Virus record (IMG/VR): IMGVR_UViG_3300044825_003205
Span: 1 to 64,000 of that record
Strand: one strand, 5' to 3'
Source of the DNA: a virus
DNA length: 64,000 nt
A program made the translations under genes and the position numbers. Below the pieces are notes generated by a model, which saw only the letters and a program-made list of their open reading frames with translations, had not been told where the DNA came from and did not search any database. How positions within the stretch are numbered: the stretch's first letter is position 1; every line of letters begins with the position of its first letter. Shown here piece after piece: positions 4,764-45,856 of the stretch.

Positions 4764-6581
4764 TTAAAGTCTATCTATTTCGATATTATCACCATTTTCG
4801 GCAGTGGCTATCGAACTATCCTCGAATAATAATAAATATGTTTCTGAGGTTGATGGAGTAGGTGTAACTGTTGGTGTGATTGTAGTAGTATTGGAAGGCG
4901 TTTGAGTATTAGTTATAGTAACTGTTGGTGTAGGAGTTGGGGTTTGACAATTATTTCCACATGGAAAACTCGCTCTTACCCAAGTAATACAATCTGTACT
5001 TTGACCAGGTTCACAGAACAAATCATTTGTAGTTAACGAACCTTCGAGCGCACAACTAATAATTGTTTGGTTTCCTCCACCGATTGCAACTACTGAATCA
5101 TTTGAACCATTACAATTGACATAGTAAACTATTTTAGATGTTGAATAATAATTTGTTATTTCATATTGATAACAATCACAAACAGGAGAAGATGTTGGTG
5201 TTGAAGTTAGTGTCGGTGTTTCTGTCAATGTTGGTGTTTCTGTCAATGTCGGTGTTGAAGTTAGTGTAGGTGTTTCTGTAAATGTCGGTGTTGCAGTTAG
5301 TGTAGGTGTTTCTGTCAATGTTGGTGTTTCTGTTAATGTCGGAGTTGAAGTTAGTGTAGGTGTTTCTGTAAATGTCGGAGTTGAAGTTAGTGTAGGTGTC
5401 TCTGTCAATGTCGGTGTTGCAGTAGGTGTGATTGTAGTAGTGTTGGAAGGTGTTTGAGTATTAGTTATAGTAACTGTTGGTGTAGGAGTTGGTGTTACAT
5501 CCAAGAATCTTGTATAAGTATCATTATAGTTTTGTAAAATCTGAGGACCTGATAACGCAGTGTTGTAAATTTTCACAATAGCCAAATCACCATCAACCAA
5601 ATTACCCGAACTAAGAGTTTCATCCCACCTTCTCATCAACCTGACTTCACCACCTGACTGAGATGTTCCAACATAATTTAATGTACCACCTGAAGCAAAA
5701 CCATTGACATATTGTCTTATTGTCGAACCATCATAAGTACCAACTACTTGGTACCACACATTAGTTTGTGGCACAAAACCTGTTGTAGTTCTCCAAGCAC
5801 CGTTGAAATATCCAACAGCCAAATTGTAGTTATTAGGTGCATTATTTGTCCCTATACTAAAATTTAATCTATTGACTAAGTTGAATTGATTTGAAACAAT
5901 CGAAGTCACTTTTCCTGTCAAGGATGTCGCTAACTTAAACCAAACCTCAACAGTCCAATTGGAAAGGTCTCCTATATTTGGAATCGTTCCATATTCTAAA
6001 GACACATCATCAAAACTTAGAATTCCACCGTAATTTGACGAATACGTTGGTGAGTTGAATAATGTTGCATTATTATTTCCTCCCGCTAAATCAGTCCAAG
6101 TTGAACCTGTCGTTGGGTATGAAAGTAAATTTCCTGAATCTAAATAAACTAATAGACTCGAAGGTATTGTTGATGGTGTTATTGTAGGTGTGTTTGTCGG
6201 AGTAGGAGTAGGGCTGGCTCCACTAAAAGAATTCCAATAACCGTTGTTTGTCAACCAAGTACTTGCATCTGTACCATTAGTGAATGTTTGTTGACCAGAT
6301 GCAACCCAATTCGCCAATTCAGTAAAAGATTCTTCAGTTTTTGTTGTAGACCTCCAAAAACCTAAATAAGCAGGAATAAATACTGGATTTGGTTGTGTTC
6401 CTCCTGTTGTTTGATGAGCTATAACGTATCCCAAATCTTCGTCAGGTCCCATCCACCATTTGACTCCACCAATATCCAAATCATATCTTAAACTCTCTAC
6501 CCCAATTGCCAAGTTACCAACTTGTTCAGTACCACTGATTGTTGACCCAGTGTTGTACGCAAATGGTCTAGTAGTTGCCAT
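4764..6581 (-). CDS. LamG-type lectin domain protein with Thr/Pro-rich linkers
   Basis: Domain order: an N-terminal virion-type region with a WWMGPDEDLGYVIAH segment (residues ~40-55); a PTPTPTNTPTITPS linker; a concanavalin/LamG-like jelly-roll from about residue 140 to 360 (LVYLDSGN, WTVEVWFKL, VWYQVVGTYDGS, LAIVKIYNTALS); a long repetitive [15 protein letters not shown] linker; a compact Cys-rich module (about ten Cys, residues ~480-550); and a second copy of the linker. A ~70-base segment encoding the linker occurs twice (near 4867-4940 and 5428-5491). LamG folds usually bind glycans, so a surface adhesin on the tail is inferred. I chose the ATG at 6581 because it follows the upstream stop as TAA-T-ATG; an in-frame ATG at 6605 would overlap the upstream gene. 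Confidence 0.8.
   Translation of the reverse strand: MATTRPFAYNTGSTISGTEQVGNLAIGVESLRYDLDIGGVKWWMGPDEDLGYVIAHQTTGGTQPNPVFIPAYLGFWRSTTKTEESFTELANWVASGQQTFTNGTDASTWLTNNGYWNSFSGASPTPTPTNTPTITPSTIPSSLLVYLDSGNLLSYPTTGSTWTDLAGGNNNATLFNSPTYSSNYGGILSFDDVSLEYGTIPNIGDLSNWTVEVWFKLATSLTGKVTSIVSNQFNLVNRLNFSIGTNNAPNNYNLAVGYFNGAWRTTTGFVPQTNVWYQVVGTYDGSTIRQYVNGFASGGTLNYVGTSQSGGEVRLMRRWDETLSSGNLVDGDLAIVKIYNTALSGPQILQNYNDTYTRFLDVTPTPTPTVTITNTQTPSNTTTITPTATPTLTETPTLTSTPTFTETPTLTSTPTLTETPTLTETPTLTATPTFTETPTLTSTPTLTETPTLTETPTLTSTPTSSPVCDCYQYEITNYYSTSKIVYYVNCNGSNDSVVAIGGGNQTIISCALEGSLTTNDLFCEPGQSTDCITWVRASFPCGNNCQTPTPTPTVTITNTQTPSNTTTITPTVTPTPSTSETYLLLFEDSSIATAENGDNIEIDRL
5190..5430 (-). repeat. Thr/Pro linker coding repeat
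   Basis: Tandem 18-base-type units encode [12 protein letters not shown] in the LamG gene. The flanking segment at 5428-5491 recurs at 4867-4940. Confidence 0.8.
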
Positions 6582-6582
6582 A

Positions 6583-9500
6583 TTAAAAAGTAATTTTTGT
6601 TGCAACTTTTACTAACCAAGTACCTGATGTTACAACAGCCTTTAATCTTATATTACTACTATTAACATCAACTTGGAAACTTATACCTTCGGTCGAACCG
6701 TTTAGGTCAGGAGTTGAATATTCTGTATATGTCGTTCCTGAACAATTCCAAGCTGCAAGAACAACCCCTGTTCTGATTTCATTCGAAACCCCTTGAACAA
6801 AGTAATCAAAATTTGCAGATGAACCAGAAACACATGGAATTAAAGAAATTACAGTAGTCCCACTTGTTAACGAACTTCCCGATGCAGAGTCAACAAAAAC
6901 ATTACCCAATATGGTCAATGACTTTGTCGTGGAATCGTAAGTGAATCCTGATTCCGCAATTGCCCCATCAGTAGTACCGTCAGATGTCAGTATTCTTGTT
7001 AATGCAGGATTTTGTACTGTTGAGAATCCCGTACCACTTGTCCCTGAAGAACCACTTGTTCCCGATGAACCTGATGTGCCAGAACTTCCACTTGTTCCCG
7101 ATGAACCTGATGTGCCAGAACTTCCACTTGTCCCTGAAGAACCACTTGTTCCAGAACTTCCACTTGTCCCTGAAGAACCACTTGTTCCCGATGAACCTGA
7201 TGTGCCAGAACTTCCACTTGTCCCTGAAGAACCACTTGTTCCAGAACTTCCACTTGTCCCTGAAGAACCACTTGTTCCACTAGAACCTGAAGAACCATCT
7301 TGGCCATCTTGGCCAGGTTCTCCTGATGGTGCAACTTGCCAAGAACTATATACACCTGAACCAACGGTTTCTTCAGTGATATACGTTAAAGAATTAGTCG
7401 TTGATGATACTATCTTACCTATGATATAGTTTTGATAGTCGTAAGATATTATTGCATGTTGTCCTGGAACCCAACAAGTATCACCTGTAATTGAAATTGT
7501 ATTTTGTGCACTTCCACCAGATAAACAAGCAATATTAACAGTCCATGTATCGGATGTTCCCGATATTGATGTCTCAACTTTTAGATAATAAGTGTCGTTG
7601 TCTACATTTATAGTTTGATTTCCTGTTGTAGGTGTATTGATTGAAGGTCCCCAAGGTCCTGGATAAGTAGCAAAACCAACCCAACCACTTGTCCAAACAT
7701 TTGTAAGGGTCGAATCTTGTACTGTAAACCTATTTGGAACATCAATAGCATACCACTGTAAAGATATCGAGCCCGAAAAAGATAAATAATCGAGAGTTTT
7801 GGATGGATAAGTATAGAATCCGCTTGTACCTGCCGGTGAACTTTCAGTGAAAGAATAATCAGTACAAGTATTACCTGTCACAGATATTGTTGAGTCTGAT
7901 GTTACACATATATCAGGTGAGGTTCCACTCGTTCCTGATGAACCGCTTGTACCAGAGCTACCACTCGTTCCAGAACTTCCTGATGTTCCTGAACTTCCGC
8001 TAGTTCCTGATGAACCGCTTGTACCAGAGCTACCACTTGTTCCTGAAGAACCATCTGAACCTGATGTACCAGAACTTCCTGATGTTCCTGAAGAACCGCT
8101 TGTACCAGAACTTCCTGATGTTCCTGAAGAACCATCTGAACCTGAGGTTCCTGAGCTTCCGCTAGTTCCTGATGAACCGCTTGTACCAGAGCTACCACTT
8201 GTTCCTGAAGAACCATCCGAACCTGATGTACCAGAACTTCCTGATGTTCCTGAAGAACCGCTTGTACCAGAACTTCCTGATGTTCCTGAGCTTCCACTAG
8301 TTCCTGATGAACCGCTTGTACCAGAGCTACCACTTGTTCCTGAAGAACCATCCGAACCTGATGTTCCTGAGCTTCCACTAGTTCCTGAAGAACCGCTTGT
8401 ACCAGAACTTCCTGATGTTCCTGAAGAACCGCTTGTACCAGAACTTCCTGATGTTCCTGATGAACCATCTGAACCTGAGGTTCCTGAGCTTCCGCTAGTT
8501 CCTGATGAACCGCTTGTACCAGAGCTACCACTCGTTCCAGAACTTCCTGATGTTCCTGAACTTCCGCTAGTTCCTGATGAACCGCTTGTACCAGAGCTAC
8601 CACTTGTTCCTGAAGAACCATCCGAACCTGATGTACCAGAACTTCCTGATGTTCCTGAAGAACCGCTTGTACCAGAGCTACCACTCGTTCCAGAACTTCC
8701 TGATGTTCCTGAACTTCCGCTAGTTCCTGATGAACCGCTTGTACCAGAGCTACCACTTGTTCCTGAAGAACCATCCGAACCTGATGTACCAGAACTTCCT
8801 GATGTTCCTGAAGAACCGCTTGTACCAGAGCTACCACTCGTTCCAGAACTTCCTGATGTTCCTGAGCTTCCACTAGTTCCTGATGAACCGCTTGTACCAG
8901 AACTTCCTGATGTTCCTGATGAACCATCTGAACCTGATGTACCAGAACTTCCTGATGTTCCTGAAGAACCGCTTGTACCAGAACTTCCTGATGTTCCTGA
9001 ACTTCCACTAGTTCCTGATGAACCGCTTGTACCAGAACTTCCTGATGTTCCTGAGCTTCCACTAGTTCCTGATGAACCGCTTGTACCAGAACTTCCTGAT
9101 GTTCCTGATGAACCATCTGAACCTGAGGTTCCTGAGCTCCCGCTAGTTCCTGATGAACCGCTTGTACCAGAGCTACCACTTGTTCCTGAAGAACCATCCG
9201 AACCTGATGTTCCTGAGCTTCCACTAGTTCCTGATGAACCGCTTGTACCAGAGCTACCACTCGTTCCAGAACTTCCTGATGTTCCTGAACTTCCGCTAGT
9301 TCCTGATGAACCGCTTGTACCAGAGCTACCACTTGTTCCTGAAGAACCATCCGAACCTGATGTACCAGAACTTCCTGATGTTCCTGATGAACCATCTGAA
9401 CCTGAGGTTCCTGAGCTTCCGCTAGTTCCTGATGAACCGCTTGTACCAGAGCTACCACTTGTTCCTGAAGAACCATCCGAACCTGATGTACCAGAACTTC

Positions 9501-12054
9501 CTGATGTTCCTGAGCTTCCACTAGTTCCTGATGAACCGCTTGTACCAGAGCTACCACTTGTTCCTGAAGAACCATCCGAACCTGAGGTTCCTGAACTTCC
9601 GCTAGTTCCTGATGAACCGCTTGTACCAGAACTACCTGATGTACCTGATGAACCATCTGAACCTGAGGTTCCTGAGCTTCCGCTTGTACCAGAACTTCCT
9701 GATGTTCCTGAGCTTCCGCTTGTACCAGAACTTCCTGATGTTCCTGAAGAACCATCTGAACCTGAGGTTCCTGAGCTACCACTTGTTCCTGAAGAACCAT
9801 CCGAACCTGATGTTCCTGAGCTTCCACTAGTTCCTGATGAACCGCTTGTACCAGAGCTACCACTTGTTCCTGAAGAACCATCCGAACCTGATGTACCAGA
9901 GCTACCACTTGTTCCTGAAGAACCGCTTGTACCAGAGCTACCACTTGTTCCAGAACTTCCTGATGTTCCTGAACTTCCGCTAGTTCCTGATGAACCGCTT
10001 GTACCAGAGCTACCACTTGTTCCTGAAGAACCATCTGAACCTGATGTTCCTGAGCTTCCACTTGTTCCTGAACTACCACTCGTACCACTTGACCCTGAGC
10101 TTCCTGATGTACCAGCCGAACCACTGGTTCCTGATGAACCTGATGTTCCGTCCACACCTGAAATACCTGAGGTTCCTGATGTACCAGAACTACCTGAAGA
10201 GCCACTCGTTCCTGAACTTCCTGAAGAACCACTTGTTCCTGATGAACCTGATGTACCAGAACTTCCTGATGTTCCTGAACTACCTGATGAACCACTTGTT
10301 CCTGAACTACCTGACGTACCGGAACTTCCACTTGTTCCTGATGAACCATCTGTTCCAGAACTTCCTGAAGAACCAGATGTACCACTCGAACCCGAAGTAC
10401 CCGAAGTACCTGATACACCATCAACACCACTTGTACCTGAACTTCCTGATGTACCGCTAGAACCTGAAGAACCACTCGTTCCTGAAGAACCAGATGAACC
10501 ACTTGTACCTGAACTTCCTGAAGAACCACTCGTTCCTGAAGAACCAGATGAACCACTTGTACCTGAACTTCCTGAAGAACCACTTGAACCAGATGTGCCT
10601 GAGCTGCCTGATGTACCTGAGCTACCGCTTGTTCCTGATGAACCACTTGTTCCACTTGACCCAGATGTTCCTGATGTTCCTGATACACCATCAACTCCAC
10701 TAGTACCTGAACTTCCACTGGTTCCACTTGAACCAGATGTACCTGAACTGCCACTTGTTCCTGATGAACCTGATGTACCTGAACTACCACTCGTTCCTGA
10801 TGAACCTGAGGAACCACTCGTACCAGAACTTCCTGAGGTTCCTGAACTACCACTAGTTCCTGATGACCCTGATGTTCCGCTAGAACCCGATGTACCCGAA
10901 CTTCCATCACTGCCGGATGTTCCCGAAGAACCCGACGTTCCACTAGAACCAGATGTTCCTGAGGTACCCGACACACCATCTACACCACTCGTTCCTGAGG
11001 AACCTGATGTTCCTGAGGTACCTGATACACCATCAACACCACTCGTTCCTGAAGAACCACTTGTGCCAGAACTTCCTGAAGAGCCACTTGTACCTGATGA
11101 ACCTGAAGTTCCAGATGTACCAGAACTACCTGAAGTTCCAGATGTACCAGAACTACCACTAGTTCCTGATGAACCAGAAGTACCTGAGCTTCCCGATTCT
11201 CCACTTAGTGTTACAGTTACCGAACTACCACTACTTGTGACGGTAATACCCGAACCTACAAAATCTATTGAGGTAACTCCTGAAGCAATAGGTACTCCCC
11301 CACTTGATATTGTGAGTGGGTTACTTGTTGTCAGTCCTGTAATAGAAATTGTACCACCCGTGTTATTGTATAAATCCAAAGTGGAAGTGGCACTGAAGTA
11401 TGTACCTCCAGTTATATAGATGTCTAATGGAAATATTTTCCACTTAGCATCGTTTCTATCAACACCATCAACACCTTCGATTGTATTACCTGTCCACGCG
11501 TCAATAAATGCAACACCCTCAGGTGTACTCGAATTACACTCAATTGAAGTAATAATTTCTTTTGTTCCTGGAGGGTCTGTTGGGTATGTGAATTCAGAAT
11601 AGAATTCGTATAAAGCTCCCGACGCTAATGCGTCTGTATATAATTGTGAGTAATTTTCAAATGAAAATTGATAAACCTTATTTGTTTCTGCAACATAAAC
11701 AAGCATACCAACTTTTCTTCTACCTGATGAAATTCCATCATTATTGAGATGAAGAACGTTTGGAAAACCTATCGGCTCAAAATAATCAAAATCAATTGGG
11801 ATTGTCGTATTAATATCGACAACTTCTCCTGTAGTTCCTGAAGGTATAGTAAAAAGTAAATCAGAAAGAAAATTTACCGACATGTATCCACCAATGTTGT
11901 ACACATCCCATGTAATACCGTCATTGGTTGGTGGTAACGGAACTAATGGCCCTACACCTTGGAAGGTAATAAGCCCATCGTTACCCATTTCTAGGTAGTT
12001 ATCGTCTCCCCCATAGTTAATAATCGGTAATGAATTAGTTTCGTCTATCGGCAT
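6583..12054 (-). CDS. Giant collagen-like Gly-Ser-Thr tail fibre
   Basis: A 1823-residue protein. Residues 1-290 are a folded head with no family I can name. Residues ~290-1380 are Gly-X-Y triplets in which X/Y are almost always Ser or Thr (GSSGTSG), broken periodically by GSDGSSGTSG and GVDGVSGTSG. A globular insert (~1380-1590, with several Cys) is followed by a second triplet block introduced by GEPGQDGQDG. The C-terminal ~130 residues (FDYFVQG ... VNSSNIRLKAVV) form a beta-rich tip like those ending other phage fibres. Gly at every third position fits a triple helix, although Pro is nearly absent. A homotrimeric extended fibre is inferred. The ATG lies 5 nt after a TATTTATA motif, with no Shine-Dalgarno. 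Antisense and alternate-frame open frames here are by-products of the 9-base repeat. Confidence 0.85.
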   Translation of the reverse strand: MPIDETNSLPIINYGGDDNYLEMGNDGLITFQGVGPLVPLPPTNDGITWDVYNIGGYMSVNFLSDLLFTIPSGTTGEVVDINTTIPIDFDYFEPIGFPNVLHLNNDGISSGRRKVGMLVYVAETNKVYQFSFENYSQLYTDALASGALYEFYSEFTYPTDPPGTKEIITSIECNSSTPEGVAFIDAWTGNTIEGVDGVDRNDAKWKIFPLDIYITGGTYFSATSTLDLYNNTGGTISITGLTTSNPLTISSGGVPIASGVTSIDFVGSGITVTSSGSSVTVTLSGESGSSGTSGSSGTSGSSGTSGTSGSSGTSGTSGSSGTSGSSGSSGTSGSSGTSGVDGVSGTSGTSGSSGTSGVDGVSGTSGTSGSSGTSGSSGTSGSDGSSGTSGSSGTSGSSGTSGSSGTSGSSGTSGSSGSSGTSGSSGTSGSSGTSGSSGTSGSSGTSGSSGTSGVDGVSGTSGTSGSSGTSGSSGTSGSSGTSGSSGTSGSSGSSGSSGTSGSSGSSGTSGSSGSSGTSGSSGSSGTSGSSGSSGTSGSSGTSGVDGVSGTSGTSGSSGTSGSSGSSGTDGSSGTSGSSGTSGSSGTSGSSGSSGTSGSSGTSGSSGTSGSSGSSGTSGSSGSSGTSGTSGISGVDGTSGSSGTSGSAGTSGSSGSSGTSGSSGTSGSSGTSGSDGSSGTSGSSGTSGSSGTSGSSGTSGSSGTSGSSGTSGSSGTSGSSGTSGSDGSSGTSGSSGTSGSSGTSGSSGTSGSDGSSGTSGSSGTSGSDGSSGTSGSSGTSGSSGTSGSSGTSGSSGTSGSDGSSGTSGSSGTSGSSGTSGSSGTSGSDGSSGTSGSSGTSGSSGTSGSSGTSGSSGTSGSDGSSGTSGSSGTSGSSGTSGSSGTSGSDGSSGTSGSSGTSGSDGSSGTSGSSGTSGSSGTSGSSGTSGSSGTSGSSGTSGSSGTSGSSGTSGSDGSSGTSGSSGTSGSSGTSGSSGTSGSDGSSGTSGSSGTSGSSGTSGSSGTSGSSGTSGSSGTSGSSGTSGSSGTSGSSGTSGSSGTSGSDGSSGTSGSSGTSGSSGTSGSSGTSGSSGTSGSSGTSGSSGTSGSSGTSGSDGSSGTSGSSGTSGSSGTSGSSGTSGSSGTSGSSGTSGSSGTSGSSGTSGSDGSSGTSGSSGTSGSSGTSGSSGTSGSSGTSGSSGTSGSSGTSGSSGTSGSDGSSGTSGSSGTSGSSGTSGSSGTSGSSGTSGSSGTSGSDGSSGTSGSSGTSGSSGTSGSSGTSGSSGTSGSSGTSGSSGTSGSDGSSGTSGSSGTSGSSGTSGSSGTSGSDGSSGTSGSSGTSGSSGTSGSSGTSGSDGSSGTSGSSGTSGSSGTSGSSGTSGSSGTSGSSGTSGSSGTSGTSPDICVTSDSTISVTGNTCTDYSFTESSPAGTSGFYTYPSKTLDYLSFSGSISLQWYAIDVPNRFTVQDSTLTNVWTSGWVGFATYPGPWGPSINTPTTGNQTINVDNDTYYLKVETSISGTSDTWTVNIACLSGGSAQNTISITGDTCWVPGQHAIISYDYQNYIIGKIVSSTTNSLTYITEETVGSGVYSSWQVAPSGEPGQDGQDGSSGSSGTSGSSGTSGSSGTSGSSGTSGSSGTSGSSGTSGSSGTSGSSGTSGSSGTSGSSGTSGSSGTSGSSGTSGSSGTSGSSGTSGTGFSTVQNPALTRILTSDGTTDGAIAESGFTYDSTTKSLTILGNVFVDSASGSSLTSGTTVISLIPCVSGSSANFDYFVQGVSNEIRTGVVLAAWNCSGTTYTEYSTPDLNGSTEGISFQVDVNSSNIRLKAVVTSGTWLVKVATKITF
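7030..7290 (-). repeat. Short collagen-like repeat block
   Basis: Second, shorter block of the same triplet repeat, in the distal part of the 1823-residue fibre, just after the GEPGQDGQDG spacer. Confidence 0.9.
7915..11200 (-). repeat. Main collagen-like repeat of the giant fibre
   Basis: About 3.3 kb of the same triplet repeat, broken by GSDGSSG and GVDGVSG variants. Blocks near 8150-8900 recur almost unchanged further along, so unequal recombination could alter fibre length. Confidence 0.9.
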
Positions 12055-12083: not shown

Positions 12084-13934
12084 CTAAAGGTTTACTCGAT
12101 TATTTCCACCTCTAAAGTAGAAGTTTTGTCCGTTTAATCTTGGTCTTAAACCATTTTGTGAATATGAAGTATAAACTCTATAGTATCCCGCAGGTATATT
12201 TGTAGAGCCGGTGTAATTAACAACCCTGTTGTAGAAGTTAAGTGTTGAAGCAATTTCTTGTTGTGTCGTAGGATTTCTACTTATTGAAATTGCGGTGTAT
12301 GCTTGTCCTGGTGTTGAGCCTGTAGGTACGAACCATGTGTACCAAGCTTGAGGACTTTGACCGCCTGTTATAGGAAGTGTATTTCCAGAAACTACTGTAG
12401 TTTGGAATCTTCCCGCAACAACAGGAACACCAAATGAATCAACACCTCTTGACAAGCTTGATATTGGTGCCGTCAATATTGCAGGTTGTGTAGTTCCCCA
12501 TCCAGAGTAACTCATATATGCGTTGAATCTATTGTTGAAGTTTTGTTGTGCAAGTACCGGACCACTCACTCCTCTGAACGCAAATGCTATGTGTACAGAA
12601 GTTGGTGACAATCCTGTTGCTGTAGTATCAGGTGTAACCCCCATAAACTTGTAAGACCACCTGTACTGTACCCCTTGGTTTCCATTTTGACCATTAGTAT
12701 ATCCTACAGGTAAACTTTGTGCTGTGGCATCACTTGCACTTGCAATGACTACCAAATCATTTTCCTGTAGTCCCGTAGGTAGTGTAATTGATGTTGTTGT
12801 TGATTGTGTTTGTCCGATATATTGTATTTGTGGTATTGTACCTGCAACAGGTCTCAAGGCAATTGTTGAAGCAACCCAAGCATCACTTCCAGTTCCACCA
12901 AATACTCCAGGATTTGTTAATCCGGCAGTTGCTTGTTGTGTGAATGCTGCCATAACAGTAGCCCCGTTTTCAATGCTACCGTATTGTGCCGCCCCTATCA
13001 AACTATATCCTGTAGGTGCAAGTACTGAAGATGCAACCACCTCGTCATCCAAGAATCCTAATGAAACAATTACATCACCATTAGTAACTGTAGTAATTGC
13101 AGGTGAGTTCGGCATACCCGCAGCCCCCGTAGAGACAGCCGGTGTATTAACATCTAATGGACTGTCACCTAATGCCCCTAATGGGTTACCTATATTGAAT
13201 CCACCCCACGTACTTCCTTGACTTAACATGTAGGAAGCCAAATCATTTCTTTGGGCCACGGTATTTACATCCATAATTAAGTAAGCGGTTGTAATTATTG
13301 CCGGTGTTAACGACGGTGTTGGAGTTTGTGTAGGAGTTTCAGTGAGTGTTGGTGTAACTGTTGTTGTGACTGTAGGTGTCTGTGTTGGTGTTTCAGTTGG
13401 AGTTTGTGTTGGTGTTGGAGTTTGTGTTTCAGTTGGGGTAATTGTTGTAGTGACCGACGGTGTCGGTGTTGGCGTTGGTGTTGCTCCTTGTGTTTGTGAA
13501 ACAGAAGGTGTTATTGTCGGTGTTGGCGTTGGTGTTGCTCCTTGTGTTTGTGAAACAGAAGGTGTTATTGTCGGTGTTGGCGTATTAGTTGCTGTTATAG
13601 ATGGAGTTGGTGTGTTAGTTGCTGTTATAGATGGAGTGATTGTTATTGTCGGAGTGATTGTTGGAGTAATTGTCGGTGTTGGTGTCGGTGTTGGAGATGC
13701 AATCTGACAAGGTAATATTTCGAATCTTTGACAGTCGTTTGCATCAATCATAATCAACATGACGGATGGCGCATTGTCAAATATTGCGGGTAAAGTAGTA
13801 AACGCTAATTCTGGTGGAACTGGACCTGAAGATATAGTGGCAAGAAAATACCTATTGTTTCCGTATATGTCTGCAACATACAGGTCAACAGGATAAGTAA
13901 CCCCAGTTATACCATCTATTCTAATCTGTGTCAT
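12084..13934 (-). CDS. Adhesin-like virion protein with Thr/Pro linker
   Basis: A 616-residue protein with three parts. Residues 1-78 are a small beta-rich domain ([20 protein letters not shown], ending at Cys-Gln). Residues ~79-215 are a Thr/Pro/Ser linker with tandem copies of [17 protein letters not shown] and TQTPTETPT. Residues ~216-616 are a large folded domain with repeated NDLVVI-, [11 protein letters not shown]- and IAFAFRG-type strands, typical of secreted or virion beta-sandwich proteins, but I cannot assign a family. The linker style is the same as in the LamG protein encoded at 4764-6581, so the cassette appears to reuse one linker type. Its start overlaps the stop of the SprB-repeat gene as ATGA, implying coupled translation. 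A peripheral adhesion role is inferred from context only. Confidence 0.7.
13290..13700 (-). repeat. Thr/Pro linker coding repeat in second adhesin
   Basis: Short tandem units encode TPTPTQTPT; a longer unit of about 50 bases encoding [15 protein letters not shown] is duplicated near 13460-13580. Confidence 0.8.
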
Positions 13935-16057
13935 GATTCACATTTTACGTCATACTCAATCAGGACATCTATTGTTAGAATCTGATTTTGTAATGGACCG
14001 TCTACGTTTGTTTGTATTGTTATTTTATTATTTAAGGCGTCTATAGTAACACCAATAATACCTGGTATTGTCATTAATAAGGAATCTATCGCACTATACC
14101 ATTGATTATCTGACGGCGCTACAAGTAAAGAATTTGTTGTGAAGAACTGACTTGTGTATACACTCCCCAAAGGTTCAACTGTAACCTTGGCAATAAAATC
14201 TGCACTTATCAAATTACAATTTGTATTAGTCAAAGTCAGGTCGTAAAAACCTTCATTCAACATTTGTAAGAGACCACATTTAGAACCTCCTTTAGATTGG
14301 AAAGCCTCATTACCCATAACATAAACTTGGTAAGAAATAAGGTTTTGAGTACAATTTACAACCATACTTCTTCTTAAAGAACAACCAAGACTATCAACTA
14401 CAGTCACACTATAAGTTCCCGCAGTTAATCCTGTTACAGTAATCGATTGTGGATTACCAATAACATTACTAGACCAAGTGAATGTAAATGGAGGTTCACC
14501 TGAAGAAATAAATGCAGTCATAGTTCCTTGGTCTCCAGTACCACAACTTGTCGATATTAAACTATAAGTAAGTGGTTCTGAGGTATCTATAAAAATTTGT
14601 TGTGTTTGAATACATCCGTTTGCATCACTGACTGAAACCGAGTGAGAACCTGATGTTATATTTGTTAAGGTAACCGCCGATTGTATTGTGTTAGCCACTT
14701 GAACAACCCCGTCAAGTAAATAATTGTATGGTTCGGTACCTCCGGTCGATTTAACAATAGTTATTTGTCCGTTGTTTTGCCCACAAGTCGTACCGGTTGT
14801 TGATGCGGTTATTGTGAATAGATTTTCAGTTATAATTGTAACATAATCACCATAAGAACATCCTGAGAAATCTTGGACAGAAACAAAATACGTTCCACCT
14901 GACAATGAAGAAAAAGTATTAGAATTATTTGATGTTGAAACAACTGAGGTTCCACCATTTGGATTCACTAACGTATAAGTATATGGAGTTGTTCCATTGA
15001 TTACACTGATTTGTATCGACCCATCGTTGTCTGAGCAACCAGAATTATTCCCTTGAATTGAAACAGAACTAATCCCATTTGGTGTTAATAGTTCTGTTGT
15101 CTGAGTAAAAGTACAAAATCCTGCGTCGGTCACTGTTACGGAGTAAGAACCTGAGGGTAAACCTGAGACCGTAAAACTTTGTGCGTATGATATCTCGTTA
15201 TTCCCTGACGATGCAGAATAGTAATAAGGTGCAGTTCCTCCTGTTATGTTTAAAGTAACAACACCATTACTCGCAAAACAAGTTGGTTGTGTCACTATAA
15301 AATTTCCGAAACCAACTGGACTAACATCTACAATTACTCCGTTTTTGGTTACTACACATCCCGTTGCATCCGTAACTGTTACGGTATAATTACCTGAAGT
15401 CAAACCAGTAATCGAACTTGTAGTTTGATTGTTACTCCAAAGGTATGTATATGGTGCAGTTCCTGTTTGACCTGTCACATAAAGTTTACCGAGTGGAGCT
15501 CCACCACAACTAGAATTCGGAACTACGTAGAGTCCAAAATCCATAGGTGAAGATTCTTCGACAATAATGGTTTCTGAAATACCTGTACAACCTCCTATGT
15601 CTTGCACAAGTAAATAATATGTGCCTGCCGTTAGATTTTGAAATATAGCTTCGTTAGTATTTGTAACCGCTGATGTAATATAAACATCACTACCCGAATA
15701 CAAGTAAAAATTAGTTGAAGAATAGTTGGAAGTCGAACTACCCGTGATTGAACCATTGTTCAAACCACAAGTCGTATTCTGCACTGCAGTGACATTAGCA
15801 CAAACACCACTTGATACTGGTATGTTAATAAAAAATTCTAAATTTGTTGGAAGTGAACTATCGTTGACATTGACGGTATATTCACCAGCAGAAAGTCCTG
15901 TCCTTATCGAAGGGAATGAATACACCGTATCAACACCCAAATTTGGTGTTGTCCACTGAACTGTGTAAGGAGGTGTACCTCCTGACAGTCGAAGACTAAT
16001 TGCTCCTGAAGTTGAACAGGCACCTGTGGTTGATATGTTATATTGAAAACTAGCCAT
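13931..16057 (-). CDS. SprB-type repeat protein, probable virion adhesin
   Basis: A 708-residue protein built from seven consecutive repeats of about 75-90 residues, filling residues 1 to ~560. Each carries the SprB signature: a Cys-x-x-x-x-G start, GGTxPYTYxW, then [16 protein letters not shown]. The SprB repeat family is known from the gliding-motility adhesin of Flavobacterium and other large surface proteins of Bacteroidota. The last ~150 residues are a different, non-repeated domain ([19 protein letters not shown] to the C-terminus) that may anchor the protein to the virion. The gene overlaps both neighbours (ATGA downstream, 8 nt upstream) within the tail gene string and has no signal peptide, so it is more likely a virion component than a secreted protein. 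Receptor binding or mimicry of a host adhesin is inference. Confidence 0.8.
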
Positions 16058-19031
16058 CTACACAGTTGATTTCCAAATTAATTCCAACATTTAGTGTGAG
16101 TTCTTCACCTAAGTTCATCGCTGTAAGTGTGAGGTTATATATTGTGAGGAAGTTCCCATTTATAAAATATCCAAGATTATCATTAACTAAAGTTGGTAGA
16201 TATAAATTCAAGGCATTTTTCCAGTCTGTGTTTGATGGAACGTCATCGTTACCGAAACCAACATAGAACTGTCCTTGTATTAATATTTGATTTGATAATC
16301 TCAAATCAACGAACCATGTAGATTTAACACTATCAAGAGCACAATCATTGAGTGTTAAACCTAAACTGTTTACGTAATTTGTAATACGGTTATTCAATAT
16401 AGAATCAAAGTTTGAAACTGATACATCCCCATTTAACCAAGGATATATAAAGAAATCAACATACTCAGTATTACAATTGTAACTGAATATGTTCGATACA
16501 ATTTCACAAGGTTGTGCAGGTACAGGAATGAACTGACATCCTCTTTGTCTCCTGTAAACAAATTTCTGTTTGTGAAGTACTGAGTTTTCATATTTTATAC
16601 CTGTGTTCCATATTGTCGTTGCGGGAACCATTTGTTCAACCAACTTCATCCAATATGGACCCATACCAATTACATAATCAATTAACTTTTGATATGTATA
16701 TTTGTTATTCGGTATCCCGACAGTTTGTTCGGATTCAATATATTTCCAAAATATAGATTGTAAGTTTGGATAACCACCTGTTTTACCGTCTGTTATAAAT
16801 TGTCTATTTCTTGTATTAATCATGTTCTGCCAAAAAGTTTGGTAGAACTCAAAGAAAGTTTTCTTTTTTGGTTCGGGGTCCACAAAAGTAGAATCAACTC
16901 CTCCTGGTACAGGAAAATTAACTGTTAATCCACTTTCTGGTATTGGGTAATCAAATTTTACTGACTCATCCCAAACATCATAAACCAATCCTTGGCCAGG
17001 GTTTAGAGCAATTTCAACGTTTTTAACGTTCAATACTAATTTTTCTGTGTCAGCAAAATAATATGCATTATAATCTCCTCCCGTTGATATTCTTATTTTG
17101 TTGTCGTCTTCAAGCCAAGATTTTTTGTTATCAATAACTTTTCTTAGTTTGAATCCTTCTGTCATGTATGGAAACTGCCTGTACACATCAAGGTAAAGTT
17201 GTCCGTAAGTAAAAGGTTCTAATTGAGTTTGGATGTCAAAATTCTGACCCGTATAAACCTGACCCGTTATTGTTACTTGGTCCGGACTTCTGTGCTGAGG
17301 GGTACTTTCATACCAACCAGCACCTTTTTGAAAAAACATATCTTCAGTCGGTCGTGGTGCCCTTGGAAAACCAAACTCATCTACCGGATAGTCTAATCTA
17401 TCCACCACAACATCTTGATATATATCGGTTGTCGTAAATGCAGTATATAATTGTCCTTTTATACTATATGTTTCTCCAGGTAATAAACTTGGGACCTCTT
17501 GTTGGTAAGTTCCTCCCGATATTTGAGCAAATTCTGTACGGAAAGTTTCCATATTCACTCTTTGGTCGGCAAGGTATATGTTTTCGTTGAATTCTATCAA
17601 CGCGTCTGGCGCACCAATTAGTCTCAATAAAAACTCTATTGACCTCCTAGTTCCCTTTGATTTGAAAAGGTATGCAGAATTCAAAATTAAATTTCTATAA
17701 AATTGATAATTCAACTCAGTAGGTGTGTATGGTCTCGATAGACCTTCATACTCATTTAACGCACCTCCACCGAAAACACTTTGTAAAAAGTTTTCGGTAG
17801 TTATCGGTGAAAAGTTCGAAGACCATCCCAAAGTTTGTGATAAGTTATACAATAACTGTGATGGTATATCGTCTTGCGGTAAGTAGTTAACGGAATTCAT
17901 GTATGCCAACGCATCAATAAATTGTTTTACTTGGTCAAAAGACCTTCCATATATTTGAAATATTTTCTCTACTTTCTGTCCTAAAGTGTCGAAGTCTTTT
18001 AAAGAGCCTGACACTAAAAAACGAGAAATCAAATTCGTTTTAAACTCATCTAAATTAACCGCAATCGCATCTAGTTGTGATAAGTAGTTGTCAAAACTTG
18101 ATGACCTAATATCTAAATTCCAAACACCATCTTTAGGCCATGTCACGATTTGTTCTGCGATATAAAATTGACCTGAAGCGTCTTGTTGGGGAACTTTGAA
18201 CATTGCGGTATATTCAGGAGTTATAAGTCTGTTCAACAAAAATTTTTCAACTTCATCAAAATCTTCTTCAAAAACTTTGTCTACAGTCACAGTATTCGGT
18301 CTTATTTCGAAATCCTCATACCACGTAGTTGCCGTGAATCCAAATGGTGCTCCTGAAACATACATTCCTATATAACCACTCGATAATGAAGTCGACGGTT
18401 GAAAAGAAACTAAATTATATTCCTCTTCATTTAAAGAAATACAATAACTCAGATAAGTGTTATTTAGATTTCTATAAATCGAAGTTTCAAGTTCTCTTAC
18501 TTGTAAATTTGTTGTGGCACTAACACTAAAATCAATATCGAAAGGATTATGTATTCTGTCAACGTTAATCTCAAGGTAAGTCTCATTTTCTACAGGGTCA
18601 TAATCTATATTTACCGCAGTTGCCCCTGTAGTGAAATCTATTTGTGTATATAAAATATCCAACGCTGCTGGAAAGAAATTAATAATTTTTGATGCGGATA
18701 CTGCAAATCTTTTTGATAAAGAACCATACATGGTAAAGTTCAAAACTTCGGATACATCATAGTTAGGCACAACCCTGAATTGTGTCTGTTGTATGATTCT
18801 ACTATCAAATAATGTGTTGACATCAATATCACTCAAAGAAATTGGTGAAGAAAAAGCACCAATATTGAAAGTTCTATTAACTTTTTCAACTACTGATGTT
18901 GTGAATTCAAAGTTACCTTGGGTCAATCCTCCTCCTGTTACCGTCTGTAAACCAACGATATCATCCGAGAATGTTCCTGCACCATTACCAGGTCTCGGGG
19001 GATAAAAATATTTGTCTCTGATAACCGCCAT
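16050..19031 (-). CDS. Baseplate wedge/periphery protein with gpI-like segment
   Basis: A 993-residue protein. Residues ~350-510 resemble the tail-protein-I (gpI) type of baseplate protein. They include the LGWSSNF and YRNLILNSAYLFKSKGTRRS segments followed by IEFLLRLIGAPD, a typical wedge-assembly signature. The rest is beta-rich with many aromatics and ends in a region with paired Cys (RGCQFIPVPAQPCEIV). The position downstream of gp6 and gp25 in the same direction matches where T4 places its large wedge proteins, so this may correspond functionally to gp7 or to a gpI-type subunit. It overlaps the upstream gene as TAATG and the downstream gene by 8 nt. Structural role likely; exact T4 equivalent uncertain. 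Confidence 0.7.
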   Translation of the reverse strand: MAVIRDKYFYPPRPGNGAGTFSDDIVGLQTVTGGGLTQGNFEFTTSVVEKVNRTFNIGAFSSPISLSDIDVNTLFDSRIIQQTQFRVVPNYDVSEVLNFTMYGSLSKRFAVSASKIINFFPAALDILYTQIDFTTGATAVNIDYDPVENETYLEINVDRIHNPFDIDFSVSATTNLQVRELETSIYRNLNNTYLSYCISLNEEEYNLVSFQPSTSLSSGYIGMYVSGAPFGFTATTWYEDFEIRPNTVTVDKVFEEDFDEVEKFLLNRLITPEYTAMFKVPQQDASGQFYIAEQIVTWPKDGVWNLDIRSSSFDNYLSQLDAIAVNLDEFKTNLISRFLVSGSLKDFDTLGQKVEKIFQIYGRSFDQVKQFIDALAYMNSVNYLPQDDIPSQLLYNLSQTLGWSSNFSPITTENFLQSVFGGGALNEYEGLSRPYTPTELNYQFYRNLILNSAYLFKSKGTRRSIEFLLRLIGAPDALIEFNENIYLADQRVNMETFRTEFAQISGGTYQQEVPSLLPGETYSIKGQLYTAFTTTDIYQDVVVDRLDYPVDEFGFPRAPRPTEDMFFQKGAGWYESTPQHRSPDQVTITGQVYTGQNFDIQTQLEPFTYGQLYLDVYRQFPYMTEGFKLRKVIDNKKSWLEDDNKIRISTGGDYNAYYFADTEKLVLNVKNVEIALNPGQGLVYDVWDESVKFDYPIPESGLTVNFPVPGGVDSTFVDPEPKKKTFFEFYQTFWQNMINTRNRQFITDGKTGGYPNLQSIFWKYIESEQTVGIPNNKYTYQKLIDYVIGMGPYWMKLVEQMVPATTIWNTGIKYENSVLHKQKFVYRRQRGCQFIPVPAQPCEIVSNIFSYNCNTEYVDFFIYPWLNGDVSVSNFDSILNNRITNYVNSLGLTLNDCALDSVKSTWFVDLRLSNQILIQGQFYVGFGNDDVPSNTDWKNALNLYLPTLVNDNLGYFINGNFLTIYNLTLTAMNLGEELTLNVGINLEINCVDG

Positions 19032-19939
19032 TAACTTGTGATGGTGTTAAAGTTCTTACTAAAATCAATATTATTACCTCTACTTTGTCTAACCTCATAA
19101 AGAAGAGCATTAAATTGGTCTCTAATTTCATAAAGGTTGTATTGTCTGTAGATGTTATTTTGAGAGTCGTAGATTGTGTAGATACCATCATCGATAGATT
19201 TGGTCTGATTACCGTAAAGAGCAATTGCAAGAGAAGATATATCGTATTCAACCATTTCAATCTCCAATGTTACAGGATTAAAAAACGTGTTTGTTATAAT
19301 AATTTCTTGGTCTGGTTGTCCAATAAATGGAGTTGCGTTAGGTTTGTTAGTGGGTGAGGATGAAGGTGAAACAGTTAAAAATAAAAGATTAGACTGACCA
19401 TCGACATATCTATACCTTATCGCTTTTTGTGTTGTGTTAACTTGATTTGTTACTACAGGTTCACAGTAAAATGATGATGTAACTATTCTAAAGAAGTTTG
19501 GTATTTTTGAACCGTCATTATTTAGATATTCAATTCTGAATCCTACAAGCCCTTGTGGTACGAATTTATTTAAAGACGCTGGTGGGACATTTGATAAATC
19601 AATAACGAGTCCTTTAACATTAGGTAATGCACTTAATACACCGCAATCCGTAATTACTGTTCTTATTTGAGCTGGTCTCAAATAGAGTGTGTATATACCG
19701 AGTTGAGTAAACTCATTTGCTGGTAATGTTAAATTGTATAATCCACCCAAAACTTCAACTCCATCATTTCCTCCTGTTGCATCATTGTTGAAGTAAGGTC
19801 TCAAAACTGTTGGAGCGTCCAAGGTTTTTAAAACGAAATTATCTGTAACATCTCTTGAGGGTGTGTAGTTCATTATTATCTGAACATCTTCAGGTGAAAC
19901 GTCACTTGGCCTTAGTGTTCCGTATGTACCGATTGCCAT
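19031..19939 (-). CDS. Baseplate-region structural protein, unrecognised
   Basis: A 302-residue protein with no family I recognise. The N-terminus (MAIGTYGTLRPSDVSPEDVQ) and a beta-strand-rich body (GIYTLYLRPAQIRTVI, GLVGFRIEYLNNDG) are followed by an alpha-helical C-terminus (YRQYNLYEIRDQFNALLYEV). It has no signal peptide or membrane segment. The stop overlaps the next gene's start as TAATG, so the two products are probably made in a fixed ratio. A CTATTTAT motif lies 18 nt before the ATG in a short gap, and may mark the start of a transcript or processed segment. Its place between wedge genes suggests a baseplate subunit, perhaps in the position T4 gives gp8, but no sequence support for that identity was seen. 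Confidence 0.65.
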   Translation of the reverse strand: MAIGTYGTLRPSDVSPEDVQIIMNYTPSRDVTDNFVLKTLDAPTVLRPYFNNDATGGNDGVEVLGGLYNLTLPANEFTQLGIYTLYLRPAQIRTVITDCGVLSALPNVKGLVIDLSNVPPASLNKFVPQGLVGFRIEYLNNDGSKIPNFFRIVTSSFYCEPVVTNQVNTTQKAIRYRYVDGQSNLLFLTVSPSSSPTNKPNATPFIGQPDQEIIITNTFFNPVTLEIEMVEYDISSLAIALYGNQTKSIDDGIYTIYDSQNNIYRQYNLYEIRDQFNALLYEVRQSRGNNIDFSKNFNTITS

Positions 19940-28325: not shown

Positions 28326-30164
28326 TTAAGAGAAGGTTGAAGACTGGAAGTTCTTGACACTAACTTTGATATCTCTAGTCGGATATCTAACTTGATATAC
28401 TTGGCTTGGTTCTGCAAACAACGTGTCGTCTACGGGTTGTATTTTTCTTGTTTCAGCATTCTCATAAGCCATAGAAGTTTCTGCAGATGAATATTGTCCA
28501 CCAACAAGATTATAAGTGTCTAATCCTGTAACAGTAATTACACCTTCTTGATTTTGTATTATACTTTTGAGTTCTGAAAGATAGACATTTTGACCTAATT
28601 CTCTAATCTGTGGATTGAGGTATGCCGAAACTTTATTTACAACGTCAGTTATAATTTGACCTGAGTTTTGTGTTGCCTCTAAAACAACTGAAACTTCAAT
28701 ACCCAAATCAATAACTTGTGCAGTTGTTATAGAAATATAATCATTCATCATTCTGTAATTAGAAAGATAGTCGGCAATATTTTGTCTCAATGTATTAGAA
28801 ACAATATTTGTCAATTTACCTGAACTATCATATGATAAAATTTGAACTATAATTTTATTGTTATTCTCTGTTATTGAAACCTTAGCTGGCGAGCCGAACT
28901 CAGGTGGCATATTCCTAATTATTGCTTCATAGTCTTGTACTGTGACAGCTCTTTTTTGTGCAGCAAAATTGAATGATACATAATTTCTAACCTCTTCAAC
29001 ATTTGGTGCATTTGCACCTCCAATTGCCGCAGTAATATTAACACACCTTAATGAATTGATGACTGAAGAGTTTGTAATTTCTGAAGGTCCGTTAACGTAA
29101 AAATTTACTGTCCCTACTTGATTAATTACATTTGTACCCAAGTTAGTTGCAAGTCCACCACCAATTCTATATTGAACAAACAATGTTGAATTCGGTGTTA
29201 GTGTTGAACCTAATGCAAAATTATTGAAATAATTATTTATTGTTAACGGAATTCCTAAATTAGTGAAAGCGTTCAATTGTTCTTGTGCGGAAGTACTTCC
29301 TCCTCCAAATGTCATTTTTTTAAATCCTTCAGGTGTAAATTCAGAAATAAATCTATTACTGGTCTGAATGTATCTTCCAACTTTAATTCCAGGTTGGTCT
29401 GAAACTTTGGTTGGGTCTTCAATGAAGACTCTGTCCTCCGCTAAAGCATCAACCTCGTACCATTTATTTTCCAAACCTAAAAACTCAGCAGCTGTCGGTA
29501 CATTTGTAAAATCAGTGCCATTTTTCAATAACACACTTGTTATTCCTAAAACATTTTTTTCAGGTAGGAATAACTCAAAAAAAGGTCTAACATCATTAGC
29601 AGATATAACACGTTTGAAAACTTTAGTTATACCATTAACAACTAACTCTCTCTTTGTTATTGTATAATTTATTAATATCCCGTTAGAATTAAAATTTGGT
29701 ATTTTTAATCTATTTGGAAAACCTTGTGCATTGTAAGGAGAGGCAAAGTTAACATCATAAACATTTTCAAATACAATCCCCGCACCCGAAACTTGTGAAC
29801 CTCTTACTAAAGTCCCTAAATACCTTTCGTCTTCTTTGTCCCCAAAAACGGGTACAGTAATAGAAAAATCAACCAAAGAAACACTCGGTTTCAAGTTTGG
29901 TATTTTTAATCCATATGTTCTAGCTATATTATATATAGAAGACCTTTGTTGAGCATATTGGAGAACTGTTTCTTGAATACTTCTATCAATATGATAATGT
30001 AGGTTGTCAGCAACTGCCGCATTTAAATCTAAGAATACTGAGAATACAGATGCATCATTGAAATCTTGTATTAAGTCAGGGTAATATTGTTTGACGTAAT
30101 TAACTAACTCAGCACGAATACCTTGGTAATCTCTGACTGTATATGAAATTTTGTTATTGGCCAT
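28326..30164 (-). CDS. 6: Baseplate wedge protein gp6-like
   Basis: A 612-residue protein of the T4 gp6/gpJ family, the wedge protein that closes the inner baseplate ring. The N-terminus shows the expected helical pattern (YTVRDYQGIRAELVNYVKQY ... DFNDASVFSVFLDLNAAVAD), the ring-forming start of gp6. The C-terminal half has a gpJ-like region (KRAVTVQDYEAIIRNMPPEF, then VVNKVSAYLNPQIRELGQNV) that is strongly typical. Length is close to T4 gp6 (660). It lies 5 nt after gp25, the same partner order as T4 reversed, and the two products contact each other in known baseplates. The start MANNKISYTVRDYQ is the only plausible one. Confidence 0.9.
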   Translation of the reverse strand: MANNKISYTVRDYQGIRAELVNYVKQYYPDLIQDFNDASVFSVFLDLNAAVADNLHYHIDRSIQETVLQYAQQRSSIYNIARTYGLKIPNLKPSVSLVDFSITVPVFGDKEDERYLGTLVRGSQVSGAGIVFENVYDVNFASPYNAQGFPNRLKIPNFNSNGILINYTITKRELVVNGITKVFKRVISANDVRPFFELFLPEKNVLGITSVLLKNGTDFTNVPTAAEFLGLENKWYEVDALAEDRVFIEDPTKVSDQPGIKVGRYIQTSNRFISEFTPEGFKKMTFGGGSTSAQEQLNAFTNLGIPLTINNYFNNFALGSTLTPNSTLFVQYRIGGGLATNLGTNVINQVGTVNFYVNGPSEITNSSVINSLRCVNITAAIGGANAPNVEEVRNYVSFNFAAQKRAVTVQDYEAIIRNMPPEFGSPAKVSITENNNKIIVQILSYDSSGKLTNIVSNTLRQNIADYLSNYRMMNDYISITTAQVIDLGIEVSVVLEATQNSGQIITDVVNKVSAYLNPQIRELGQNVYLSELKSIIQNQEGVITVTGLDTYNLVGGQYSSAETSMAYENAETRKIQPVDDTLFAEPSQVYQVRYPTRDIKVSVKNFQSSTFS

Positions 30165-30169
30165 CTTAA

Positions 30170-30637
30170 TTAAATATTGATTATTACAAAATCACTCTGA
30201 GAAAATACCGAATTACCTATTGAGTAATCTATTCTTACTTTTGCAGTATATTCGTATGTCCCTTTACCGGGAACCCTGTATATATCCCAAAGTCGATTGC
30301 CCTCTGTTCCGGTGTAATCCCCATCTACTTGGTCTTCAGCGGTGATTGGTTCTATTGAAACATTATTCAAAATTAGGTTGGGTAAAAATTCTTGCACCGA
30401 GTCCCTGATATCTGATTCAATCGCACTAAATGTCAAACCGTCAAAAGGTTCAAAAATATATTCATATAATCTTGTCCCGAAAGTTGGTAAGAAATACCTT
30501 GACCCTTTCCTAGTTAAAAGTAAATGAATTAAGTCAGACCTTATTTCCTGTTGTTCAAATTCTGTTAAAGCTAAATAATCACCTCTTCTTGAATCTTGGA
30601 ACGGAAAATAAAGACCATATGTAGTACCATCTGCCAT
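30170..30637 (-). CDS. 25: Baseplate wedge protein gp25-like (lysozyme-like fold family)
   Basis: A 155-residue protein of the gp25/GPW family, the small wedge subunit conserved in all contractile injection systems. Visible signatures are DLIHLLLTRKGSRYFLPTFG, then TRLYEYIFEPFDG, and LSAIESDI-like helix spacing (SAIESDIRDSVQEFLPNL). The family resembles lysozyme in name only and is structural. It is slightly longer than T4 gp25 (132 residues), with an N-terminal extension (MADGTTYGLYFPFQDSRRGD). A TATTTATG motif lies 4 nt before the ATG and no Shine-Dalgarno is present. It begins the wedge gene string that runs to the fibre genes. Confidence 0.9.
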   Translation of the reverse strand: MADGTTYGLYFPFQDSRRGDYLALTEFEQQEIRSDLIHLLLTRKGSRYFLPTFGTRLYEYIFEPFDGLTFSAIESDIRDSVQEFLPNLILNNVSIEPITAEDQVDGDYTGTEGNRLWDIYRVPGKGTYEYTAKVRIDYSIGNSVFSQSDFVIINI

Positions 30638-45543: not shown

Positions 45544-45856
45544 AATAATAAAAATAATTTTCTAATGCACCTTTATAGTCTTGTAATGATGGTAGAAGAG
45601 GAAAAGGAATTGTCAATATTGCACCGTCAGGTATATAATTTTCCAAACCTCCATACTGTGGATTTGCTTGTAAAATAAGCCAACCAAAAAAGGGACTACC
45701 ATAAAAATCTTGAGAAACCTTATCAAGTCTGCTTCTACCGACCTTATAAATAAAAGTCTTGTCTGATGGTTTATTTGGTAGATAAACAAATGGCACAACG
45801 GTCTGTTGTCCGTTGATTAGAAAATCCGTGTATCTGTTATAATATGCGAATGGCAT
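45533..45856 (-). CDS. 53: gp53-like baseplate wedge protein with LysM fold
   Basis: A 107-residue protein whose residues ~35-90 form a LysM-like module: YKVGRSRLDKVSQDFYGSPF, LILQANPQYGG, then IPDGAILTIPFP. T4 gp53, which joins wedges around the hub, contains such a LysM fold, and similar short tail proteins X exist in other myophages. It is shorter than gp53 (196). Its start shares one base with the stop of the 1662-residue gene (TAATG), and its end overlaps the giant hub gene by 11 nt, so the three are translationally coupled. No peptidoglycan binding need be implied; in baseplates the fold is structural. Confidence 0.8.
   Translation of the reverse strand: MPFAYYNRYTDFLINGQQTVVPFVYLPNKPSDKTFIYKVGRSRLDKVSQDFYGSPFFGWLILQANPQYGGLENYIPDGAILTIPFPLLPSLQDYKGALENYFYYYGR

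Follow-up and report, generated by a model that had tools for sequence, protein, structure and literature searches.

A linked SprB-repeat protein with a fixed array in the baseplate/fibre operon of a T4-like virus: a candidate stalk of the adsorption apparatus

The window analysed here (the whole 64,000-nucleotide stretch, positions 1 to 64,000 of the IMG/VR record IMGVR_UViG_3300044825_003205, which belongs to a virus record of 134,630 bases) carries in its tail gene run an open reading frame (ORF; 13931-16057, minus strand, ATG start) encoding a protein of 708 amino acids (aa), hereafter P0001, with repeats of the SprB type (PF13573). The original prediction, made from the letters alone, had described it as seven SprB-type repeats followed by a C-terminal domain of a different kind, and both the profile search and the structural model agree with that description. 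Directly upstream, and overlapping it by 8 nucleotides (nt), lies the gene of a second protein, P0003. The features of the two genes (unit boundaries in P0001 are approximate, being drawn from motif and model) are:

13931..16057, minus strand: P0001, SprB-repeat tail-operon protein (708 aa; PF13573, model)
15803..16039, minus strand: SprB-type unit R1 (residues 7-85; Pfam place, alignment, model)
15545..15802, minus strand: unit R2 (residues 86-171; no Pfam match, beta-sandwich in the model)
15317..15544, minus strand: unit R3 (residues 172-247; Pfam place, alignment, model)
15074..15316, minus strand: unit R4 (residues 248-328; Pfam place with the best match, alignment, model)
14825..15073, minus strand: unit R5 (residues 329-411; Pfam place, alignment, model)
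14579..14824, minus strand: unit R6 (residues 412-493; Pfam place, alignment, model)
14360..14578, minus strand: unit R7 (residues 494-566; Pfam place, alignment, model)
13934..14359, minus strand: alpha/beta C-terminal domain of P0001 (residues 567-708, linker 571-593 disordered), common to P0003
16050..19031, minus strand: P0003, baseplate-operon protein (993 aa)
16053..16463, minus strand: C-terminal domain of P0003 (residues 857-993), homologous to that of P0001

In the profile search (hmmscan) PF13573 matched P0001 at an expect value (E) of 5.5e-23 and with 80.7 bits, above the cut-off of 28, over 6 stretches; these are the only 6 places matched in the 134,630-base record (2 of them exceed the cut-off singly), and none of 14 control genomes was matched. 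The 6 places correspond to units 1 and 3-7, and since Pfam overlooks unit 2, the count of seven depends on the AlphaFold model and the alignment. The model (computed from an alignment of 55 sequences; mean predicted local distance difference test score, pLDDT, 84.6; predicted template modelling score, pTM, 0.35) shows seven beta-sandwich units in succession, the disordered linker and a separate C-terminal domain, the low pTM being consistent with a flexible chain. At E <= 0.01, PF13573 matches every one of the 55 aligned relatives. Two further families, BiPBP_C (40.5 bits) and DUF1918 (25.2 bits), also exceed their own Pfam cut-offs on P0001, and we read them as probable cross-hits between immunoglobulin (Ig)-like folds.

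The surrounding genes are those of a T4-like virus: the window holds gp25 and gp6 wedge proteins, gp32, UvsX, a DnaB-type helicase, tail sheath and hub, and the prohead protease and gp23 lie farther along the record (gp23 about 96 kb from P0001 on the linear record). The structural genes to which we refer below are:

30170..30637, minus strand: gp25-type baseplate wedge protein (PF04965)
28326..30164, minus strand: gp6-type baseplate wedge protein (Baseplate_J)
53008-53751: baseplate hub
55324-58518: tail sheath

For gp23, the first-ranked phage relatives are the uncultured LR756508 (484 kb), Microcystis phage Mel-JY01, Flavobacterium immuto phages and Rhodothermus phage RM378; for gp6 they are immuto, LR756508 and Mel-JY01. 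This ranking fits a placement of the virus in the Far-T4 group. P0003 lies downstream of gp25 and gp6 within a single gene run, and its core (residues ~300-484) recurs in gp109 of Flavobacterium phage immuto (E 2.5e-5, probability 75%) and in a Mel-JY01 protein of 1336 aa (E 1.9e-6, 90%), each of which sits a few genes after a gp6 homologue; the gene before gp6 is of the gp25 type in Mel-JY01 and annotated as a baseplate assembly protein in immuto, and the immuto operon continues past gp109 into genes annotated as tail fibre and tail spike. From this recurrence after gp6 in both operons we take P0003 to be, in all likelihood, part of the baseplate. Of P0003 and its five upstream neighbours as far as gp6, none passed a Pfam cut-off, and PHROGs gave one weak match on the same set, to a family of unknown function. 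The protein just upstream of P0003 (302 aa, 19031-19939, minus strand) is strongly conserved, with 69-89% identity among loci outside the near-identical ones, and had no match at E <= 1e-3 in 50,697 phage records.

The association of P0001 with P0003 was followed across 203 viral loci carrying the P0003 family, 70 of them fetched via P0001 and 133 via P0003 (the latter drawn from the best 80 of 594 in one scan and from 64 in another, overlapping). P0003 is adjacent in 70/70 of the P0001-fetched loci, and among the 133 fetched via P0003 a P0001-family gene follows directly downstream within 50 nt in 121, at 246 nt in 1 and is lacking in 11, 10 of which have less than 300 nt of contig left. Overall, a P0001-family gene is found in 192/203 loci (122 distinct proteins, some cut by contig ends) and stands immediately after P0003 in 191/203; the distinct P0003-P0001 pairs number 126 (some contigs were fetched repeatedly), with a 1-nt overlap in 77. 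Judged by gene position, i.e. by its place in a baseplate/fibre operon and by this kept linkage, P0001 would belong to the tail-fibre or adsorption-module class. We also observed one locus (L136:9971-18766) in which the P0003 homologue is fused within a 2931-aa ORF and no P0001-family hit occurs, and a second (L135:9971-15115, cut by the contig end and one of the 10 above) that resembles this fusion type; the two appear to show another construction of this part of the operon.

The C-termini of the two proteins are related at profile level. Comparison of their last ~95 columns with hhalign gave a probability of 94.9 (E 4.4e-8), with all 13 control slices at <=1.0%; the reciprocal family searches with hidden Markov models (HMMs) were unequal, finding P0001 at 4.5e-5 and P0003 more weakly at 6.5e-3, and the two separate models display the same order of elements, H-E-E-H-E-E-E (from residue 596 in P0001 and from 875 in P0003). 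On these grounds we regard the two C-terminal domains as homologous by sequence profile. A search of the 79 distinct bacterial SprB loci kept from a genome collection (the best 80 of 155 matches) did not turn up the domain in any of them. The suggestion, made at the outset, that this domain may anchor the protein is strengthened by its homology to the end of a baseplate-operon protein. When the P0003 model was re-aligned, the first nine rows on the C-terminal domain all bore titles of phage tail complexes (Z 4.1-5.8) and the next were unrelated DNA polymerase eta structures (Z <= 4.1); the phage-tail rows barely exceed unrelated ones among the families in that list, and the structural likeness is suggestive only. 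Chain identities can be inferred only from complex titles and lengths, and we do not claim a T7-nozzle or sheath identity for the common domain at such low Z.

In spite of sequence identities that fall to 35%, the core of P0001 measures 694-725 aa in 54/55 aligned sequences, the single 657-aa core most likely being that of L063, whose ORF runs to the contig end. Repeats at the same position in different phages resemble each other (mean scores 152-224) more than repeats at different positions within one protein (36-110); one Flavobacterium contig has, by contrast, repeats evenly spaced at 237 nt and with equal scores. A tree of 98 phage repeats (14 phages) and 235 bacterial ones (at most 3 per locus from 1198) recovered R2, R3 and R4 each as a single clade and R1 nearly so, with R5-R7 unresolved. 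The 98 phage repeats as a whole are not one clade (smallest side 274/333, support 0.23) but mix with the bacterial repeats, so that this comparison, which had been proposed as a check, names no bacterial source lineage. Positional likeness and position clades together indicate that the array was, as far as the sequences tell, fixed before these phages diverged, and it may have arrived already diversified. Selection on P0001 is purifying: in three close pairs the ratio of nonsynonymous to synonymous rates (omega) is 0.03-0.05 for P0001 and 0.02-0.03 for P0003. Across all the pairs compared, the ratios are rough because synonymous divergence is high in many. No hypervariable unit was found within the SprB array.

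Variation is concentrated in the flanking modules and not in the array. Among the 55 aligned sequences, Pro/Thr-linked end modules occur as N-terminal extensions of more than 10 aa in 6 and as C-terminal extensions of more than 5 aa in 12. Downstream of P0001 the gene run continues with three proteins:

12084..13934, minus strand: P0002 (616 aa; conserved N-terminal adaptor of ~80 aa, Pro/Thr linker, C-terminal part less widely kept)
13689..13934, minus strand: adaptor segment of P0002 (residues 1-82)
6583..12054, minus strand: P0004 (1823 aa; very long GSSGTSG collagen-like repeat), a probable fibre
4764..6605, minus strand: P0005 (613 aa; Laminin_G_3 domain and Pro/Thr linkers), a probable fibre or tip

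P0002 overlaps the P0001 stop by 4 nt. Its first ~80 residues have a homologue in 156/203 loci and its remainder in 60/203 (contig ends uncorrected), and the adaptor homologue adjoins P0001 in 86 of 110 distinct relatives with downstream room, in 69 of those 86 as a gene of <=140 aa; the adaptor family is thus usually a separate small gene, whereas in the window the adaptor is continued by a Pro/Thr linker and one more domain. Receptor-binding modules show such a combination of an invariant base and a variable tip. Across the same 110 relatives, 80 have the adaptor gene only, 11 the C-terminal extension of P0001 only, 6 both and 13 neither, an association (Fisher P 3.3e-5) that is confounded by relatedness. 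By eye, at least 4 of the 13 loci with neither (L020, L082, L111, L237) show an adaptor-like ORF below the rule used. In L049, L050, L051, L060, L061 and L076 the gene after the SprB protein opens with a stretch that, again by eye, resembles a further SprB-like repeat. The relatives of P0004 vary greatly in length, many being cut by contig ends.

The host was sought in the same data. All 79 kept bacterial SprB loci carry titles that read as Bacteroidota, although the genome scan used SprB-type peptides and this count mostly restates where the repeat family lives. Shine-Dalgarno scarcity is known for Bacteroidota, though not unique to them. Motifs of this kind precede 2/34 ORFs in the window (background 0.10; 3/33 with hand-picked starts), as compared to 25/43 in a 48-kb stretch of T4 (0.07), 2/47 in Flavobacterium phage FCL-2 (0.06) and 4/49 in 50 kb of Cellulophaga phage phi38:1 (0.13). 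An A stands at -11 in 62% of window starts and in 47% of those of the T4 stretch. Neither P0003 nor the C-terminal domain was matched in the 79 bacterial SprB loci (0/79), where they had been sought as a host clue. By gp6 and gp23 a Microcystis phage is about as near as the Flavobacterium phages. In the Far-T4 literature, one passage predicts that a Far-T4-like marine virus infects Bacteroidetes (PMC7198788); on the other side, another states that the hosts of freshwater Far-T4 phages could not be named, with three contigs tied by tetranucleotides to an alphaproteobacterial family in what its authors class among spurious, inconsistent predictions (PMC4360716). With the locus titles, a Shine-Dalgarno scarcity unlike that of T4 and the nearness of gp6 and gp23 to Flavobacterium phages on its side, the Bacteroidota host that had been proposed is probable.

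Taken together, we consider it reasonably probable (roughly 0.6) that P0001 belongs to the adsorption apparatus of a Far-T4-type myovirus of Bacteroidota, where it forms a stalk of constant length that is attached to the baseplate through its C-terminal domain and stands beside, or carries, exchangeable tips. By that domain P0001 would sit at the baseplate, either alongside the homologous domain of P0003 or by way of it, as homology and gene order suggest; the seven SprB/Ig-like units would form a stalk of set length, in keeping with their fixed number and the purifying selection; and host contact would be made by exchangeable modules, i.e. the Pro/Thr-linked end domains that some P0001 relatives have and, in most relatives, the downstream proteins with the adaptor, where the variation lies. 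P0001 would be present in the virion.

Several points weigh against this proposal. The docking role would follow from homology and adjacency alone. Only profiles reveal the relation of the two C-terminal domains (searching the record with one sequence gave P0001 itself and nothing else at E <= 1), and the HMM of the P0001 domain is not significant on some P0003 relatives (among the 60 weakest rows listed per search). As a whole the P0003 model is of low quality (mean pLDDT 58.5), its Foldseek search against the PDB gave nothing at E <= 0.001, and the Z of 4-6 of its C-terminal rows lies under the level that the tool advises trusting. A profile of 9 P2 gpI sequences met P0003 at P 0.005 with a probability of 7% and one KGT motif (reversed profile 0.15), and we did not establish a gpI/gp7 identity for P0003 from this weak motif match. 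Omega of P0001 is ~1.5-2x that of P0003 and reaches 0.05-0.29 in eight other P0001 pairs (the highest, L118/L140, includes the C-terminal extension). A strict either/or of C-terminal extension and adaptor gene is ruled out by the 6/110 relatives that have both, and L136 (and by shape L135), with its P0003 fusion and without an SprB-family gene, means that the SprB protein is not universal. Finally, the two best PHROGs matches of P0001 are labelled 'Hoc-like head decoration' (E 1.9e-16 and 4.3e-13), and the PDB profiles that match it best bear the titles 'putative neck whiskers protein' (gp24; E 2.2e-5) and 'decoration proteins' (E 2.8e-4 and 1.8e-3).

Because of these last two sets of hits, a real rival is that P0001 decorates the head or forms a neck whisker, i.e. 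an Ig-like array on the capsid or collar that helps, in the manner of Hoc or whisker proteins, with weak attachment to surfaces. The better of the PHROGs matches (PHROG 2973; the other is PHROG 3945) lies over the Ig units, the match being one of Ig-like tandems, and in T4 the whisker gene wac comes after gp12 within the same gene run. Ig-like folds may, however, cross-match easily, and the P0001 family meets T4 Hoc at only 1.1% and Wac at 0.2% in hhalign; its C-terminal domain is common to a protein whose gene run follows gp25 and gp6, its gene keeps to that protein in nearly all loci and sits with baseplate genes and not with head genes, gp23 being far away. We therefore regard a place on the head or neck as unlikely, though it is the contender to be taken most seriously.

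The original prediction had offered receptor binding by mimicry of a host adhesin as one possibility, beside adhesion to surfaces or polysaccharides. Under this rival reading the SprB array itself would bind the ligands of host SprB-type adhesins, or the adhesins themselves. The repeats are indeed of the kind found in the Bacteroidota-titled loci, with which they mix in the tree, passages in two papers list the gliding machinery, or the adhesins that belong to it, as potential receptors for phages (PMC13288928, PMC7345892), and Foldseek places the grappling-hook protein GhpA of Aureispira first among the PDB matches of P0001 (E 5.4e-20). On re-alignment, however, GhpA pieces come only 19th and 28th (Z 9.4-9.6, the first row having 10.9), level with numerous Ig and fibronectin proteins, so that the fold itself is generic. 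Speaking against it, too, are the fixed repeat number, the purifying selection, the lack of a hypervariable unit and the place of the variation in end modules and in the downstream gene; the claim is not supported by these data and we hold it to be quite improbable.

Still less probable is a moron, i.e. a protein secreted from or displayed on the infected cell and kept out of the virion. A passage in a paper on bacterial toxins treats SprB-repeat proteins as type IX substrates (PMC7073777), and P0001 has a weak Por_Secre_tail match (E 1.8e-4), as do 17/55 relatives at E <= 0.01. This match is, however, below cut-off and internal (348-396) instead of C-terminal; no C-terminal type IX sorting domain was found with the Pfam type A model (the one model looked at), and no N-terminal signal peptide by simple hydropathy without a dedicated predictor (best 12-residue mean 0.85 in the first 40 residues). 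The secretion signals that would have told against a virion protein were thus not seen by these simple tests, and with the gene locked into a structural operon and its C-terminal domain not found in the bacterial loci, we rejected a secreted adhesin. A chance or low-complexity match to the SprB model, for which the Ser/Thr/Gly-rich composition and the low scores of single phage repeats might speak (<=34 bits each, against up to 66 in seven bacterial genomes searched), is negligible and appears already refuted, as far as sequence can refute it, by the match in every aligned relative, the seven modelled beta-sandwiches and the GhpA pieces at the top of the Foldseek list.

The proposed stalk can be set beside known systems. 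Repeat family and Ig-like fold are those of the Bacteroidota SprB proteins (gliding adhesins; Aureispira GhpA, PDB 9flp/9flw/9fly, pieces of which are the four best Foldseek PDB matches, yet not the best on re-alignment), from which the phage array differs in being short, fixed at seven, and made of diverged, position-locked repeats, and in ending in a different domain in place of a type IX sorting domain. The T4 series gp6-gp7-gp8-gp9-gp10-gp11-gp12-wac follows the same operon logic, wedge genes and then fibres, but the P0001 and P0003 profiles match none of gp6-gp12, Wac and Hoc, nor P2 gpI and gpH (hhalign, all <=2.0%, against single T4 sequences). The immuto operon gp113-gp101 has the baseplate assembly protein gp113, the gp6 homologue gp112 and the P0003-core homologue gp109 in the same order and then fibre/spike genes, whereas no SprB protein was seen in immuto. 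In UniProt, the 714-aa protein A0A6J5LD72 ('SprB repeat [uncultured Caudovirales phage]') is related to P0001 by fold over its whole length, at E 7.5e-62 and with 36% identity; for it we found a database name and no literature account of function, linkage or C-terminal domain; a search of open-licence literature text found no paper on SprB repeats in phages. The sole match to P0001 at E <= 1e-5 in the phage collection is a 1670-aa ORF of the uncultured 642-kb phage LR756502 (L296:10591-15603), which matches the SprB array in a record without a P0003 match at E <= 1e-3 and may be a case of another phage using the repeat independently. Already known, then, is the 'SprB repeat' name of one relative; new here are the C-terminal domain common to P0003, the gene linkage, the fixed array, the purifying selection and the location of the variation. 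Elsewhere in the window, two very large ORFs, 38668-45543 (2291 aa) and 45856-50844 (minus strand, 1662 aa, without PHROG match), lie between the replication and hub genes.

We consider that P0001 represents a conserved adsorption-module candidate in a largely uncultured phage group (at least 594 relatives of P0003 were matched), for which P0003 and the SprB protein would provide a marker gene pair, and that its locus adds to the link between Far-T4 phages and Bacteroidota predicted from other evidence in the passage cited above (PMC7198788). The neighbouring modules that it points out are likely to set host range. More speculatively, and with a good deal of doubt, an aquatic T4-like lineage could have captured an already diversified seven-unit piece of a Bacteroidota adhesin, added to it a second copy of the docking domain of the baseplate protein and frozen it as a tail part, whose adhesin origin may still serve the tail in engaging the adhesin layer of the host or its surface ligands, like with like, before the variable tips find their receptor. 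If such a capture from a host adhesin were true, the phage would have made a host surface-protein repeat into a part of its virion.

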